Assembly (NCBI RefSeq): GCF_000017625.1
Contig: NC_009712.1
Location: 1,612,001-1,676,000, forward strand
DNA: 64,000 bases
Origin: Methanoregula boonei 6A8
GTDB taxonomy: Archaea; Halobacteriota; Methanomicrobia; Methanomicrobiales; Methanospirillaceae
Direction: 5' to 3'
Below, piece after piece: positions 8,853 through 41,137 of this stretch. Position 1 is the stretch's first letter. Every line of letters begins with the position of its first letter. The notes beneath the pieces were generated by a model. That model saw only the letters and a program-made list of their open reading frames with translations, did not search any database and was not told where the DNA came from. The position numbers and the translations under genes were made by a program.

Positions 8853-9764
8853 ATGACCAGACAATCTATGTTTGCACTCTGTACGCTGGGTCTGTTGGTT
8901 CTTGTCGCAGCAGTGCCCGTATCGGCAACCTGCTATGCTATCAACAACACGATTACCGTCCCGGGTGCGACAGTGTTTATTGGAGAACAGCAACTGAACC
9001 TGAACAACTTAACCGCATCTGACCCGCTCCTGAAGTCAGACGACGCGATCGGCTGGTGGGCGTCCGCAGCATCGCCTGCTACCTCTGCACCTGCGCGATC
9101 CTACCGTTTGAGTAACCTTGACCTGGGATCTTTTTATGTCTCTCCTGCTGCCTTTGGGAATTGGCCGGGCAACTGGTATGGTATGAAGAATGGAATGTGG
9201 GACGGCGGGCCTGCACTCTTCTCGGTACAGGATCCCCGTGTCTCTCTCGACATCTGGGATCTTTCCACCGCAACCACAGTAACCGGCGGTACGGTGCACA
9301 GGGGAGATTACCTTGCGTTCCGTATCAGCACGAACATGCAGTCTGCACTTGACCCGGCCAAACGCGGCCAGAGTGCTACCGGTGCCGAGGCGGGTAACTT
9401 CGATCTCCAGGTAAAGGGTCCCACCGGCATCACGTACACTGAGCTGCTCAGCGGCACGGGTTCCGATGCTACGAGCCTTACGTCTCAGAATGCCAATCTC
9501 CCGTTGTGGTTCTGGGGAACAAAGGACGCAAAGGTCCCGTCATCCTCCAACGCAGCAGCCAACTGGTCGACCGGTGCAGTCGATCAGACCGGACAAAATG
9601 CCTACCCGTCCGGTGTGTACACCGTTACCGCCCGCTCCCGGCTTAACGGCATGTATGATAACTATCAAAATGGCGGCGCAACATACACCGGTAAGACCGT
9701 CAGCCAGCCCGCAACGGTCAGTATTTCCGTACCCCGTAACCCGGTGATTCCGGAGACTTCCTGA
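8853..9764 (+). CDS. Secreted surface (S-layer-like, DUF3821-type) protein
   Basis: A 303-residue exported protein. A 26-residue signal peptide (hydrophobic core LCTLGLLVLVAAVPVSA) precedes a beta-rich region beginning with VPGATVFIGEQQLNL. This opening recalls the DUF3821 surface proteins of Methanomicrobiales. Several NXS/T sites could be N-glycosylated. There is no C-terminal membrane anchor, the chain ending ...RNPVIPETS, so the protein is secreted or held by other contacts. GGAGG at 8842-8846 clearly supports the ATG at 8853, and the longer upstream frame is rejected. A T9 run follows the stop. The family assignment is from memory. Confidence 0.75.
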   Translation: MTRQSMFALCTLGLLVLVAAVPVSATCYAINNTITVPGATVFIGEQQLNLNNLTASDPLLKSDDAIGWWASAASPATSAPARSYRLSNLDLGSFYVSPAAFGNWPGNWYGMKNGMWDGGPALFSVQDPRVSLDIWDLSTATTVTGGTVHRGDYLAFRISTNMQSALDPAKRGQSATGAEAGNFDLQVKGPTGITYTELLSGTGSDATSLTSQNANLPLWFWGTKDAKVPSSSNAAANWSTGAVDQTGQNAYPSGVYTVTARSRLNGMYDNYQNGGATYTGKTVSQPATVSISVPRNPVIPETS

Positions 9765-33874: not shown

Positions 33875-33883
33875 TTTATAAAA
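33875..33883 (+). promoter_or_regulatory. TATA box of the parA-chemoreceptor operon
   Basis: TTTATAAAA is centred about 26 bases before position 33905. The transcript is therefore expected to begin almost exactly where the ParA reading frame begins, implying a leaderless message. Confidence 0.5.
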
Positions 33884-33901
33884 GTTCAGTCAGGTGAGAT
33901 C

Positions 33902-34798
33902 ATAACAACCATCACGTTCTGCCATCATAAAGGCGGAACCGGGAAGACCACTTCCTGCCTGAATATTGCCGGGTTCTGTACTCTTGCAGGAAAAAAAGTG
34001 CTGGTGGTTGACTGCGACCCCCAGGCAAATGCCACGGCCGGTCTCGGCATCGTCCCTGACCCGGAGAAAAAGAACATCTATGATGTCTTCATGAGCCGGG
34101 TGGAGGGTTTTCCCCAGGTACCCATAACAGATATCATCTGTTCTTCCGAATCCGGTATCGACGTTGCACCGGCAACTCTCGATCTTGTCGGTGCAGAACC
34201 CTACCTGTACGGGATCGCGTCACGGGCCGAGGTGCTTAAAGACGCTCTCTGGCCGGTAAAACAGCGTTATGATTTTATCCTGATTGACACTCCCCCGAGC
34301 ATGGGGCAGTTTGTGATTAACGGGCTTGTTGCCGCCGATCACGTAATTGTCACTCTTGATTCCGGCTCCTTTGCCCTTGCCGGCGTGAGTCCCCTCCTGA
34401 CTATTTTCGGGGACATCCGGGAGAGTATGGGTAAGAACCTCAGTGTGGACATGGCAATTATTTCCCGCTGGGGAGAGGGTGGGGACCTGGAACCCGCAGT
34501 GCAGGAAGAGGAGACAAAAAAAGATCTTGCAGGCTGGCTGCGCTCGCTCTTTTCCCCCCGTCACGAGCCCAGTGAGGAGGAAAAAAGGGCAGAAAAAGAA
34601 CGTGTGAAAGAACACGAGCGGTTACAGGGAATGCTTGGCGAGGTAGAAAAGAAGTTTGCCGATGTGCATACCGTGCCGTACTCTCCCGAGGTGTACGAGG
34701 CCCAGAAGCGCGGGCTGCCGCTTTCACACTTTGCTCCCGACAGCAGTGCCGGGAAGGCATACAGGGCAATCGCAGATGAAGTGATACCATGGACATGA
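33902..34798 (+). CDS. ParA/MinD-family ATPase of a chemoreceptor cluster, non-standard start
   Basis: A ParA-type ATPase of about 298 residues. The deviant Walker [15 protein letters not shown] lies within 20 residues of the start. [16 protein letters not shown] and [12 protein letters not shown] are the A' and B motifs. A charged, probably coiled-coil insertion (about residues 205-245) precedes the C terminus. No ATG, GTG or TTG precedes the Walker A in this frame back to the stop at 33866. The first is GTG 33998, which would delete it. I place the start at ATA 33902; ATC 33899 is the alternative. Its stop overlaps the first chemoreceptor gene. Relatives such as PpfA and ParC position chemoreceptor arrays. 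Confidence 0.8.
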
Positions 34799-36780
34799 CA
34801 CCACTGGAACTGGCAGTAAAAAAAGCCGCAGAAGGGGACCTTGCGGTCCGCATTGACGAGAACCATGCAGAGGCAGAACTGCGTCCGCTGGCACAGCAGA
34901 TAAACCGGCTTATTGCAAAGGCATCGGACACGGCGGAAAAAAAGCAGCGGGCAGATATCATGATCAAGTACAACCCGCTTGCGATTGCCATCTTAAAGAA
35001 AGACCGGGCAATTATCAATATCAACAAAAAATACGAATCGCTCTGGCGCGGGACCCGGGAAGAGCTCTTGAAAAAGCGGCTTTATGACTTCGATATTACG
35101 GTCATATCCGGCGATCACCTCTATGCCTGCTTTGAGACACGCAAGCTTGCCGAAAGCCACTGCCGGGTGAAGTGGGCTGACGGCACCCAGAAGTACCTGA
35201 CGCTCCAGGCCATGCCGATGCTGGACAAGGCAGGGGAGGCTGACGGTGCATTCTATTTCTGGATCGATACCACCGATCTCCATGACAAAGTTGCCGAGGC
35301 AGAACAGATCCGGCAGCGGGCAGACCGTATTATCGAGGAAAACCCGTACGCGCTCTTTACCATCGATACCGGGCTTACCGTTCGTTCGATAAACAGTGCG
35401 TTTTTAAAGCTGACCGGGTATTCCCGGGACGAGGCTGCTCATCTCACCATGAAGAATTTCCGGTTCAAGAAGAACAAAGGCGCCAGTGTCGAGGCGACAA
35501 TCACTTCAAAGCAGCGCGGGCACGGTGAATCGGTGATCGAGTTTCCCGCAGGCACCCTCACGCTCGACTGGTACTACATCCCGCTTCTCACCGAAAAAGG
35601 CGAGGTGGAATCCCTGCTCGTCGTGTACAACGATATCACCGAGCGGCGCCGGCAGGAACAGGAAATCCAGGAACTTGTGGACGATTCAAAGAAAAAAGCC
35701 CAGGTCCTTTCCGCAAGCGCAGCAGTTCTCGAGACCGGGCTTGCACGGCTTGCCGAAGGGGATCTCACCTTTATTGCAGAGATCGATGAGAAAGATCCGC
35801 TTGTGGCCTTAAAGAAGGATTACAACTCGGCCACCGGCTCCATAAGAAACGTGATCGACGAGATCGTAAAGTCTGCCCGCCAGCTTGACGCCACCACGGC
35901 AGAGACCGGCAAGAGCACCCAGGAGATCTCCCGGTCTACCGAGCAGGTGGCGATCTCCACCCAGGAATCCGCAGAAGGGGCAAAAAAACAGATCTCCGAG
36001 ATCGAGAAAGTCTCAAGCGATGTCTCTGATCTCTCTGCCTCGATCGAGGAGATCGCAAGCACCACCCATGACCTTATGACCCACGCGCAGAAGGCCGCTA
36101 CCGAGGGGAACCAGGCAGCAGAGCTGGGCAAGGTTGCAACCGCCAAGATGAAGGCCGTAGAAAAGATCTCGGGAGAGAGCGTCAACGAGATCACGGCCTT
36201 AAACGAGCGTATGAAGGAGATCTCCAACATCGTAAAGATGATCGCCGATATCTCCAGCCAGACAAACCTGCTGGCCTTAAACGCCGCGATCGAGGCCGCA
36301 AGAGCCGGCGAGCACGGCCGGGGTTTTGCGGTTGTGGCAGGAGAGGTCCGAAACCTTGCCGGGGAGTCCAAGACCGCCACCAACAATATCGAGACCCTGA
36401 TTGGCTCCATCCAGAACAACAGCGAGAAGACCGCGGCGGCAATCAGGAACTCCTACCAGGAGATCCAGACAGGTATCGAGAGTGTCAACCAGACCATCGA
36501 GGTACTCAACCGGATCATCTCCGAAGCCCACGTGGTCTCGCAGGGGGTTACCGAGATCACCAAGGCCACCGAGGCTCAGGCCGAAGCCACAAACCGGGTG
36601 ATGCAGGGCATGGAGCAGACAAGCACCCTCACCCATGAAAACCAGCAGCGCATGGAGGACATGGCAGCCCTTGCAGAGGAGACAAGCGCCTCCACCCAGG
36701 AGATCGCCAGTGCATCCTCAGAGCTCTCCCGCATGGCGGAGAGACTTAAAGTCGCAACCGACAAATTCAAGTTACGGTGA
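34789..36780 (+). CDS. Soluble methyl-accepting chemotaxis protein, two PAS domains
   Basis: A 663-residue cytoplasmic chemoreceptor with no transmembrane segment. A short HAMP-like stretch ([16 protein letters not shown], residues 14-42) is followed by PAS domains at about 57-165 and 180-290, a HAMP-like linker ([16 protein letters not shown], near 320) and the receptor signalling domain. The signalling hairpin tip [20 protein letters not shown] and flanking [17 protein letters not shown] are canonical. It should bind CheW and a CheA kinase and sense an internal signal through the PAS domains. The start (34789, or 34795) overlaps the ParA stop. CheW follows by three bases. Confidence 0.92.
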
Positions 36781-36783
36781 ACC

Positions 36784-37296
36784 ATGGCCGGAACAATTGA
36801 CGTAGTGGAGTTCGAATTAGGCGGGGAGCGGTATGCGCTTGACATCAACCTGGCGCGCGAGATCGTGGAGATGATACCGATCACCCCTATCCCCCGGGCG
36901 CCGGCCTTTATCTCGGGCGTGATCAACCTTCGGGGTGAGATCACCAATATCATGAACCTCAATACGCTCCTTGCGCTGCCGGAAAAGGAAGTGCGCGAGA
37001 ACCAGAAGATCATTGTTCTTGTGCCCGATGCGGCAAACGGGAACAATGTCGGGATTATTGTCGACGATGTTGCAAGTGTCCGCCAGGTATCACAAGACAA
37101 CATCGAGCACATCGGCTCCGGGATATCTTCGGAATTCTCGCAGTTTGTCAAGGGGATTATCAAGGTCACAAACGAGGATACTGAAAAAAAGGAAAAAGAT
37201 CTCATCATCTGGCTTGATATGGAACGGGTGATTGCAGACCTGGGCAGCGGGTCAAGGAACGGCCCGGGAGCCGGTACCAGGCATGATGCCCTGTGA
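36784..37296 (+). CDS. cheW: CheW coupling protein
   Basis: A 170-residue CheW-like scaffold linking chemoreceptors to CheA. FELGGERYALDINLAREIVEM, PRAPAFISGVINLRGEI and VGIIVDDVASVRQV are the family motifs. The C terminus after about residue 150 is Gly/Arg-rich and extends beyond the usual CheW end. It lies between two receptor genes (3 and 36 bases away), which suggests it serves both. No CheA gene occurs in the window. Confidence 0.93.
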   Translation: MAGTIDVVEFELGGERYALDINLAREIVEMIPITPIPRAPAFISGVINLRGEITNIMNLNTLLALPEKEVRENQKIIVLVPDAANGNNVGIIVDDVASVRQVSQDNIEHIGSGISSEFSQFVKGIIKVTNEDTEKKEKDLIIWLDMERVIADLGSGSRNGPGAGTRHDAL

Positions 37297-37332
37297 GGAC
37301 ACGACGGGAAATGAGCAAAAAGGAGGCCGGGT

Positions 37333-40236
37333 ATGACTGAACAACGACCGGGACGAAAGGCATTGTTTGTCGGGGCCCAGGCCCCGGCGGCAGTACGGAC
37401 AACCCCGGATGAAATAGCACAGAAAGTCCGGGATCTCAATGAAGAGCTTGCACTGGCACTCAAAGGTGCCCATGCAAAAAAGGCAGTACCACCGCTTGAT
37501 CCGGCGCATTTCGGCAGCGAGTACACAACCCTTGTGGATGCCGTAAACACCGCTGCGGCACAGATGACTGCACCCGCACCGGGCGTGCCGGCCCCCGGGG
37601 AAATGCTCCCGGAGATGCTTGCAGAGTACGGGAAGAAGATCGATGTGCTCGAACGCCGGCTCGAATTCATGGAGAAGAACAACCCGGTGCCCATGCTGAT
37701 TGCAACACCGGCACTTGATATCACCGAGGCCAATGCCGCATACGTGGCCCTGACCGGGATCCCGGAAGACAAGATCGTAAAAACCAATCTCCACGATTTT
37801 ACCATCACGGACCGGTCCGGTGAGGGCGCACGCGAAGCCATAGAAAAGAAACGGCGGGCCGTGGGCGAACTCACCGTTACCTTCCCCTCAGGAGTCCACA
37901 CCTTGGAACAGTACTGCATCCCGGTCCTTGACAGCAGCGGTGCGGTCACTTCGCTTGTCATTCTCTACGACGACCTTACCACAAAGAAAAAGAAGAACGA
38001 GGAGATCGAGCGGCTTAAGGCGCGCTCAGAGACGATTGTCCAGCAGAACCCGATGCCTATCGTGCTCGTTGATACCGGTTTTATCATTAAAGTGGTAAAC
38101 GATGCCTTCGTGGCGCTTGCCGGCAGGGAAAAGGACCAGTTGCTCTCCCGGTCCCTCAATGACCTTGCCATCACACAGCAGGCCGGGGACGGGCTTAAAA
38201 AAGTCCTTGAGACCGGGACCCGTTCTGAAGGAGAGGTTGTCATTGAGTCTCAGGGGAAGGCACACCGGCTCCGCCAGTATGGCATCCCCATCCCCGGGGC
38301 AAAGGGCGCCATCGAGAACATCCTTGTGGTATACAACGATATCACCGGGGAAAAACAGGAGGCAGGCGAAGGTCTTGATACCCGGAACCTGTCCGAGGCG
38401 CTCATCCGGGAAAATCCTATCCCTATCCTTATAACCGACCGCTCCTTTACCATCATCTCGGCTAACACCGCCTTTGAGAAGCTGAGCGGGTATACTCCTG
38501 ACCGGATCACCGGCATGAACCTGCGCGGGATAAAGATCCGTGAACAGAAGGGCGAAGGTGCCGGCATTGCAATCAGGGAGAAACGCCGCGCATCCGGGGA
38601 AGTTACCGTGGATCTCCCGAGCGGGACAAAGATTCTCGAACAGTACGTGATGCCGCTCCTGGACGCCAAAAACAGTATCGAGCACCTCCTTCTCGTATAC
38701 TACGATGTTACTGCCCAGAGGGCAAGCCAGCAGGACCTTGCAAAGAAGATGGAGGAAGTTGCGGCCTTAAAGAAGCGCTCCGATATCATTGTCATGCAGA
38801 ACCCCATGCCCATCATGCTTATGGATCCCTCCTTTAAGATCCTCATGGCAAACGAGGCCTACACAAATCTCACCGGCCTCTCAAAAGAAAAAATCCATGG
38901 CATGAGCGCACGGGAGTTTAAGATACTCTCCCAGTCCGGGGAGGGGCTCAAAAAAGTGCTTGAAAAGAAGGCCAGGAGCTATGGCGAGGTTACCATCGAG
39001 TTTCCAAGAGGCCTGCGCATTCTCGAACAGTACGGCATCCCCATGCTGGATGCACAGCAGAACCTCTCCACGATCCTCTGTGTGTATGTGGATGTGACCG
39101 CCCGGCGCGAACAGGAGAATAAGATCCGGGCCATGATGGACGAGGCCAAGGCAAATGCCGAACTGCTCTCCGCGAGTGCTGCCGAGCTCCAGACCGGGCT
39201 TGCACGGATCGCTGCCGGAGATCTCACATACCAGCTCAGCATCGATGAGGCAGACCCGCTGGTGCGGCTCAAGAAAGATTACAACTCGTCCGTTGCTGCA
39301 ATACGGTCGGTCATTGCCGAACTGATGCAGTCAATCCGGAAACTGGATGTGACCATCCAGGACACCATCAAAAGTACTGACGAGATTGCAAAAGCTACCG
39401 AGCAGGTGGCCATATCCTCCCAGAAGGCAACCGACAATTCCAAGGAGCAGCTCGCCGGCGTGGAGAAGATCTCCGTCACCGTCTCGGACATCTCTGCTTC
39501 CATCGAGGAGATCGCAAGCACTTCCCACGATGTTATGGCTCATGCCGGAAAAGCGGCGGAGGAGGGATCCCATGCCGCAAGCGTGGGCAAGACTGCAACA
39601 GACAAGATGCAGGCAGTAGAGAAGATCTCGCAGCAGAGTGTCAATGAGATCACGGCGTTGAACGAGCAGATGCGCCAGATCACAAAGATCGTCAACCTGA
39701 TTACCGATATTGCAAACCAGACAAACCTGCTTGCCCTAAACGCTGCGATCGAGGCCGCAAGAGCCGGCGAGCACGGTCGCGGGTTTGCCGTTGTTGCCGG
39801 GGAAGTAAAGAACCTTGCCGGGGAGTCCAAGAAGGCAAGCAACCAGATCGAGACCCTCATTAAGGCCATCCAGACAAAAAGCGAAGTTACGGCGACATCC
39901 ATCCAGGACTCCTTTGTGCAGATTAAGGGCGGCATCGAGAGCGTGAACATGACGGTCGAATCGCTCAATAAGATCATAGCCGAGGCAAGCGTGGTCTCCC
40001 AGGGACTTGCCGAGATCACCAAAGCCACCGAGAGCCAGGCGCAGGCCACTTCCGGCCTGATGGCAGGGATTGACACGCTCAGGAGATCGACCGAAAACAA
40101 CCAGCACCGGATGGAGGATATGGCGGCCCTTGCACAGGAAACCAGTGCCTCCACAGAAGAGATCGCCAGTGCTTCTGCCGAACTCTCGATCATGGCAGAG
40201 CGCTGCTCCGGGATGATGAAGGAGTTCCATACCTGA
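37333..40236 (+). CDS. Soluble methyl-accepting chemotaxis protein with four PAS domains
   Basis: A 967-residue cytoplasmic chemoreceptor without membrane segments. After an Ala/Pro-rich N-terminal region come four related PAS domains starting near residues 113, 234, 356 and 485. Each opens with an NPxPxxxxD strand and ends with a YDDLT/YNDIT/YYDVT-type motif. A HAMP-like linker ([17 protein letters not shown], near 622) and a canonical signalling domain ([20 protein letters not shown]) follow. The PAS units are more similar to each other than to those of the first receptor, indicating internal duplication. GGAGG lies before the start. Confidence 0.92.
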
Positions 40237-40327
40237 TTTTGCGGTTGTGCAAAATGCATGAGTATTGCACTCCTGTTTTTTGCCATCCCCACAGTCAGCC
40301 AGAAGCACTACGGGACAGGAGCATACC

Positions 40328-41137
40328 ATGACCTTAGAGAAAGACGACGGTTTTTCCGCCCTGAAGCGGTATATCGAGCAGACGTTAAAGATCCAGTGTT
40401 CCAACTACAAGGAGGACTACATCAAGCGCCGGCTCCTCTCACGCATGCGGTCCACCGGCACCTCGGCATATGACGAATATCTCCGGTACCTGCGCGAGCA
40501 CGAACCGGAGCTCGAAAACTTGAGAAACGCACTCACGATAAACGTTACAGAGTTCTTCCGCGATGCCGACGTGTATAATCTTATCAAAAAGGAGGTATTC
40601 CCCGCACTCTTCAAAGGCAGGAAGACAATCAGGATTTGGTGCGCCGGCTGCTCGACCGGCGAAGAGCCGTATTCCCTTGCCATGATGCTCTCGGATATGA
40701 TGGCTGCTGACAAGACCATCTCCGGCCAGATCTTTGCCACCGATATCGATGAGGTGGTGCTCAAGAAGGCAAAAGAGGGGATTTATCCGGAGAAATCCAT
40801 GGGTAAACTCTCTGAGACCCAGGTTCACCGCCATTTCACGAAGCTTCCCGACGGTAATTTCCAGGTAAAACCGCATCTCCAGTCGCTCATCCGGTTCCGC
40901 CCCCACGATCTTATGAGCGGCCAGCCGATCTCGCGCTACCTGGACATGATCAGCTGCCGGAACGTGACCATCTACTTTACCGAGAAGCAGAAAGATGAAC
41001 TGGCAAAAATGTTCCATGCAGCGCTCGTGCCCGGCGGGTACTACGTGATGGGCAAGACCGAATATCTCGGGCGAGAGGTAGAAGGGCTCTTTTCGCCGGT
41101 CAATTCCATCCAGAAAATTTACACAAGAAAAGACTAG
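40328..41137 (+). CDS. cheR: CheR chemoreceptor methyltransferase
   Basis: A 269-residue CheR, methylating receptor glutamates with S-adenosylmethionine. The N-terminal helical CheR domain (SNYKEDYIKRRLLSRMRSTG) is followed by TEFFRDADVYN, IRIWCAGCSTGEEPYSLAM (SAM site), FATDIDEVVLKKAKEGIY and DMISCRNVTIYFTEKQK. AGGAG 7-12 bases before the ATG at 40328 sets the start. It closes the cluster. A T6 run (41142-41147) follows the stop. Confidence 0.94.
   Translation: MTLEKDDGFSALKRYIEQTLKIQCSNYKEDYIKRRLLSRMRSTGTSAYDEYLRYLREHEPELENLRNALTINVTEFFRDADVYNLIKKEVFPALFKGRKTIRIWCAGCSTGEEPYSLAMMLSDMMAADKTISGQIFATDIDEVVLKKAKEGIYPEKSMGKLSETQVHRHFTKLPDGNFQVKPHLQSLIRFRPHDLMSGQPISRYLDMISCRNVTIYFTEKQKDELAKMFHAALVPGGYYVMGKTEYLGREVEGLFSPVNSIQKIYTRKD

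Follow-up and report, generated by a model that had tools for sequence, protein, structure and literature searches.

Among the closest described systems in which a ParA-like ATPase serves chemoreceptor arrays is PpfA-TlpT of Rhodobacter (Cereibacter) sphaeroides, which acts on a cytoplasmic cluster; another is ParC-ParP of Vibrio, with Hn0722 in Halothiobacillus. Turnover of ParA/MinD ATPases is driven by partners that bear a short basic peptide at the N terminus; such a stretch is present in TlpT, and N-terminal peptides of 20-52 residues are enough in Spo0J, SopB, MinE and PomX (PMC7993993). TlpT binds PpfA through its N terminus (PMC3964821). In ParP, an N-terminal domain that binds ParC is joined by a proline-rich linker to a CheW-like domain, which inserts into the array (PMC5706961). 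We analyzed a 64,000-nucleotide stretch of the genome of Methanoregula boonei 6A8 (a single contig of 2,542,943 bases), hereafter the window (G000:C1:1612001-1676000), which encodes on the + strand, head to tail, ParA, a first methyl-accepting chemotaxis protein (MCP1), CheW, a second receptor (MCP2) and CheR, each with a Pfam match. Hamer et al. 2010 report PpfA homologues in che operons of 77 species, with M. boonei within the set (PMC2829493), and the bare ParA-che linkage in M. boonei may already be on record there. Literature searches on this ParA in Methanomicrobiales returned no study.

We propose that the ParA of the cluster probably positions a cargo, and that this cargo, encoded alongside it, is a cytoplasmic chemoreceptor array, with the protein that carries an N-terminal GRKALF peptide (MCP2 in the window) as putative adaptor and ATPase activator. 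It is best described, as far as sequence goes, as an archaeal variant of ParA-driven chemoreceptor-array positioning. Compared by published description, in PpfA-TlpT, too, the gene of a ParA-like ATPase neighbors that of a soluble receptor within a che cluster, and the receptor N terminus has a basic, putatively activating peptide, matched on MCP2 by GRKALF from its sequence only. Unlike PpfA-TlpT, the archaeal system has a near-invariant GRKALF, a long ParA insertion with an amphipathic helix and no PRN arginine; its peptide also occurs on PAS-CheW fusions, and its output is probably the archaellum. As in ParC-ParP, a ParP-like PAS-CheW fusion, with a putative N-terminal ParA-binding part, a linker and a CheW-like domain, is found in 17 loci, whereas the window has no ParP, the peptide standing on an MCP, and the archaeal arrays are soluble. 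MinD4 of Haloferax volcanii is also an archaeal ATPase of the ParA/MinD superfamily and places both chemosensory arrays and archaella (PMC11588486), but it is of the MinD type, not ParA, and no peptide-bearing receptor adaptor is described there. An earlier note on this DNA had guessed the kind of system correctly, choosing PpfA and ParC, the right comparisons, and was mistaken about the docking site.

ParA is linked to soluble chemoreceptor genes in a group of methanogenic archaea

Of the 232 genomes of the order, 113 have a ParA orthologue. MCPs are encoded by 111 of these 113 genomes (the other two are incomplete assemblies) versus 57 of the 119 genomes that lack ParA (Fisher p=3e-20, species not being independent). 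Sixty neighborhoods were read first and more later, among them ParA loci of other families in the phylum, and wherever the downstream DNA was readable, a receptor, CheW or PAS-CheW gene came after the ParA gene in the same orientation. All ParA relatives at ≥200 bits in the phylum sample were so linked, and two at ~150 bits (L131 and L132) had no che gene nearby. In two family members (L130 and L122), a complete or near-complete che cluster lies together with ParA. Since the arrangement recurs in every examined ParA of the subtype with readable downstream DNA, it is far beyond chance. The earlier note had assigned this ParA functionally to soluble receptors, had suggested a co-occurrence analysis and had named, as the finding that would speak against it, a ParA subtype usually lying away from chemotaxis genes; the outcome was the opposite and supports the assignment.

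In 9 of the 10 loci of family f10 (L120-L129), the contig ends within the receptor gene just after ParA, suggesting that a repeated poly-HAMP sequence breaks the assemblies. In L139 (G167) and L098 (G104), a stop or frameshift interrupts a parA copy, yet a GRKALF receptor is still there; the cause may be an error of assembly or recent decay.

A near-invariant N-terminal peptide marks the ParA-linked protein

The partner encoded downstream of ParA starts, within ~25 residues (start-codon choice allowed), with [P/I/L/T/S/A]-G-R-[K/R]-A-L-F, followed by a low-complexity stretch. Partners with an N-terminal GR[K/R/Q/M][A/G/V]L[F/L] were found for 80 of 82 ParA open reading frames (ORFs) from two archaeal lineages, with exactly GRKALF in 63, and the remaining two ORFs lie at contig ends. 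Duplication or a frameshift gives some loci two ParA ORFs, and a few loci hardly differ from one another; similar sequences were therefore removed, and conservation was calculated again on the 54 that were left. Here G, R and L were conserved in 100%, F in 98%, A in 89% and K in 83%, and flanking positions mostly in <50%. A genome-wide DNA search yielded 139 matches to PGRxALF in the 232 genomes, 78 of them within 6 kb of ParA versus 0.2 expected; ParA-less genomes had 0.18 matches per genome. The M. boonei genome contains only two matches of this type, one of which is the MCP2 peptide.

The peptide is carried by three unlike architectures: PAS-MCP, poly-HAMP-MCP and PAS-CheW. The last occurs in 17 loci (L054, L055, L056, L060, L061, L079-L084, L094, L095, L134, L135, L137 and L138), where a GRKALF-bearing fusion stands beside ParA in place of the receptor. 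From gene order, a ParP-like adaptor seems to have arisen by loss of the receptor signaling domain and fusion of the remainder with the CheW gene that followed. ParA and the peptide are also absent together: six soluble receptors in ParA-less loci of several genera (L104, L105, L114, L115, L117 and L118) lack it. CheW and CheR genes are still present in L104, L105, L114, L115 and L117, and a genome with both ParA and the peptide comes from the genus of L117 (g34).

In the window, the peptide is absent from MCP1, the receptor whose gene overlaps parA. Methanoregula loci with MCP1 and CheW in between carry it on the farther receptor, and MCP1 appears, judged by gene order, to be an insertion between ParA and MCP2 in this genus. 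The proposal that the N termini of both receptors could be docking sites is kept for MCP2, with one short peptide as the likely site, and was dropped for MCP1, which starts with a HAMP-like segment, has no peptide and is an apparent later addition. In a Methanoregula relative (L050), the CheW gene starting at 9465 (minus strand) opens with the first part of MCP1, apparently a relic of MCP1 deletion.

ParA is of the ParA/Soj type and has a variable insertion

The motif KGGTGKT, a deviant Walker A of the form KGGxGK[T/S], is invariant in 27 aligned orthologues. The best solved-structure match of the ParA profile was Soj (6iub, E=8e-41), AAA_31 begins at ParA residue 2, leaving no N-terminal helix-turn-helix domain, and the archaeal MinD model TIGR01969 gave 68 bits, below its cut-off of 201.75. 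By sequence, the protein is of the ParA/Soj type, not MinD. The insertion, located after the strand ending in ...AILTRW, varies in length and sequence among orthologues. An amphipathic basic helix of the pattern phi-xxx-phi-xx-phi-phi was present in the insertion of 67 of 80 orthologues versus 6.8 from shuffles, and in 59 of 240 (25%) control segments; in the f10 family the insertion is shorter and the helix weaker. Insertion helices such as GLALFLKRIFSP and GFIARLKQLFFGK resemble the MinD tail. No C-terminal membrane-targeting helix was seen in the ParA orthologue alignment, the MinD-anchor-like helix being internal instead. The charged insertion near the C terminus had been put forward as the site of receptor contact. 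The insertion is real, but its conserved part is the MinD-type amphipathic helix and contact is unsupported; because the insertion varies while the peptide is constant, we rejected it as the contact site.

The parA start codon seems to be non-canonical across most of the order

The parA frame in the window has no ATG, GTG or TTG ahead of Walker A. Among 70 loci of the order with a conserved start position, the start is AUU, AUA or AUC in 61 and AUG in 8. Counting all 80 loci read, 39 have no ATG, GTG or TTG anywhere from the in-frame stop upstream as far as Walker A. A GGTGA-type Shine-Dalgarno sequence lies at a constant distance from the start in many loci. In Methanoculleus loci, a GTG that lies three codons farther upstream is a possible alternative start, and parA of the f10 family starts with ATG. 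Judged from the DNA, a non-canonical start codon (window 33892-33904, L040-L099) seems to be conserved across most of the order, and a low, fixed dose of ParA is a plausible reason for it.

Layout of the cluster

The features of the cluster are given in Table 1. The parA stop and the MCP1 ATG overlap by 10 nt. We found no transmembrane segment in MCP1 and, in MCP2, a single borderline stretch inside a PAS domain that is not convincing. Pfam matches and the transmembrane check thus agree with the first description of a ParA gene overlapping the first of two membrane-free PAS receptors, plus CheW and CheR; the region described begins at 33875, but ParA does not start there, its likely start being the ATA listed below.

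Table 1. Features of the ParA-chemoreceptor cluster (positions in the window)
Feature	Position	Strand	Evidence
Shine-Dalgarno AGGTGA of parA	33892..33897	+	Read from sequence; same spacing to start codon in many orthologues
parA, 298 aa, deviant Walker motif; probable non-canonical start ATA at 33902	33902..34798	+	Pfam AAA_31 E=1e-47
LAGWLRSLF codons (ParA residues 209-217), amphipathic helix in insertion, membrane-targeting-like	34526..34552	+	Orthologue alignment, pattern count
MCP1, soluble receptor: HAMP-like N terminus (residues 6-43), PAS, MCPsignal (residues 445-614)	34789..36780	+	Pfam
cheW	36784..37296	+	Pfam CheW E=2e-31
MCP2, soluble receptor: at least 4 PAS, MCPsignal (residues 751-911)	37333..40236	+	Pfam
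PGRKALF codons (MCP2 residues 6-12), proposed ParA docking/ATPase-activating peptide	37348..37368	+	Near-invariant in ParA-linked proteins
cheR, ATG at 40328; longer frame opens with TTG at 40265	40328..41137	+	Pfam CheR E=4e-57, CheR_N

The rest of the chemotaxis pathway lies elsewhere in the genome

CheA and CheY had been noted as absent from the cluster, which is correct at the locus. The sole CheA of the genome lies at ~1361k, in the run CheD-CheC-CheA-CheB-CheY-CheF (G000:1360488-1365890), which adjoins ArlJ and ArlI; four archaellin matches are found at 1371-1375k, and CheR matches occur at three places in the genome. In close relatives of the same genus (L044, L046 and L053), the ParA cassette directly follows the cheFYBACD genes, and in L052 ArlI and ArlJ also lie in the same stretch as the cassette. 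Because the single CheA stands beside archaellum genes and the cassette stands beside che genes in relatives, archaellum signaling is the simplest reading of the array output. Of the two outcomes foreseen for a cluster without CheA and CheY, signaling through genes elsewhere fits the CheA, CheB, CheY, CheC, CheD and CheF found there. An output other than motility is unnecessary, since the genome's one CheA adjoins archaellum genes.

The genome search that the earlier note advised for cheA, cheY, cheB and other receptors found them all, including two further receptors, at ~1269k (poly-HAMP, L005:7097-10057) and ~1091-1092k (PAS, L006:6799-8313). Each has its own CheW and no ParA. As both are also soluble, M. 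boonei 6A8 may have no membrane receptors whatever. In ParA-less Methanoregula relatives (L108, L110, L112 and L113), the CheW-CheR pair is kept with no soluble receptor beside it, and the MCPs in these stretches have transmembrane segments.

Discussion

From gene content, linkage, conservation and the joint absence of ParA and peptide, we infer docking, ATPase stimulation, positioning and output as follows. ATP-bound ParA dimers would coat a cellular surface, while MCP2, or a PAS-CheW fusion in other lineages, would enter the array through its signaling or CheW domain and expose the GRKALF peptide on a flexible N-terminal tail. The peptide would dock on ParA and boost ATP hydrolysis, as ParB N-terminal peptides do, so that the array would track the ParA gradient and be positioned or divided between daughter cells, much as plasmids are in bacteria. 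Partition at division, which the earlier note took the layout to imply, would be one possibility beside positioning or control of assembly. The array would feed the genome's single CheA and CheY and, via CheF, the archaellum.

Several points weigh against this reading. The peptide resembles the ParB/Spo0J box in being short, basic and N-terminal, with Gly-Arg and then Ala-Leu-hydrophobic (SGLGRGLEALL in Thermus thermophilus Spo0J), but GRKALF is two residues shorter between GR and AL and its carrier is a chemotaxis protein, not a centromere-binding one; with two residues fewer, we treat the likeness as one of function that does not prove homology. The peptide pattern was first picked by eye, after the data had been seen, which is why the genome-wide DNA search was added, and the ParA-less control loci number only six. 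An AlphaFold model of ParA built from five sequences had a mean predicted local distance difference test score of 59, too poor to use. Finally, the PRN arginine of the ParB-partner type is replaced by Tyr or Phe in 73 of 81 ParAs, so nucleoid binding cannot be assumed, and other basic residues could substitute for it in DNA binding.

The loss of this arginine, together with a MinD-like helix in a ParA-type protein, makes movement over the nucleoid and along the membrane both possible. It is conceivable, if somewhat doubtful, that ParA behaves like MinD, its insertion helix binding the inner membrane face in the ATP state until GRKALF proteins release it, with arrays placed along the membrane or at the archaellum pole and not over the nucleoid. 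The frequency of the helix pattern relative to shuffles and controls, the Tyr or Phe in place of the PRN arginine and the Haloferax MinD homologue that positions arrays and archaella (PMC11588486) favor this possibility, whereas the sequence type of the protein, the internal position of a helix that is C-terminal in MinD anchors, and the shorter insertion and weaker helix of the f10 family speak against it.

It is improbable that ParA governs array assembly, stoichiometry or the choice of receptor type and not position or inheritance. Loss of the ParC-type ATPase in Halothiobacillus alters cluster assembly besides position (PMC10241942), and a GRKALF-bearing PAS-CheW fusion could compete with CheW; however, the characterized ParA-type chemoreceptor partners cited here all affect localization, and no assembly-only example was found among them. 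That ParA is a separate gene, in one operon by chance with receptor genes that were passed on together, is very improbable: one ancestral cassette could account for all loci in the order, but linkage and peptide recur in two further families of the phylum, whose receptors have unrelated sensor domains, the six ParA-less receptor loci lack the peptide, and the duplicated cassettes L065/L066 retain both ParA and peptide.

A broader and rather unlikely extension of array positioning by ParA is that these proteins form a distinct archaeal class, in which soluble arrays would be moved on the membrane by the internal amphipathic helix and recognized by a portable GRKALF peptide shifted among receptors and CheW fusions, the dose being kept low by the conserved non-AUG start.

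For the placement of large protein assemblies in archaea, MinD4 of Haloferax is the main example that we found. The cluster described here would be a second archaeal positioning system, of the ParA type. It includes a peptide of seven residues, and mutating this should separate the array from ParA; searches for GRKALF could also help to find cargo adaptors of other ParAs.

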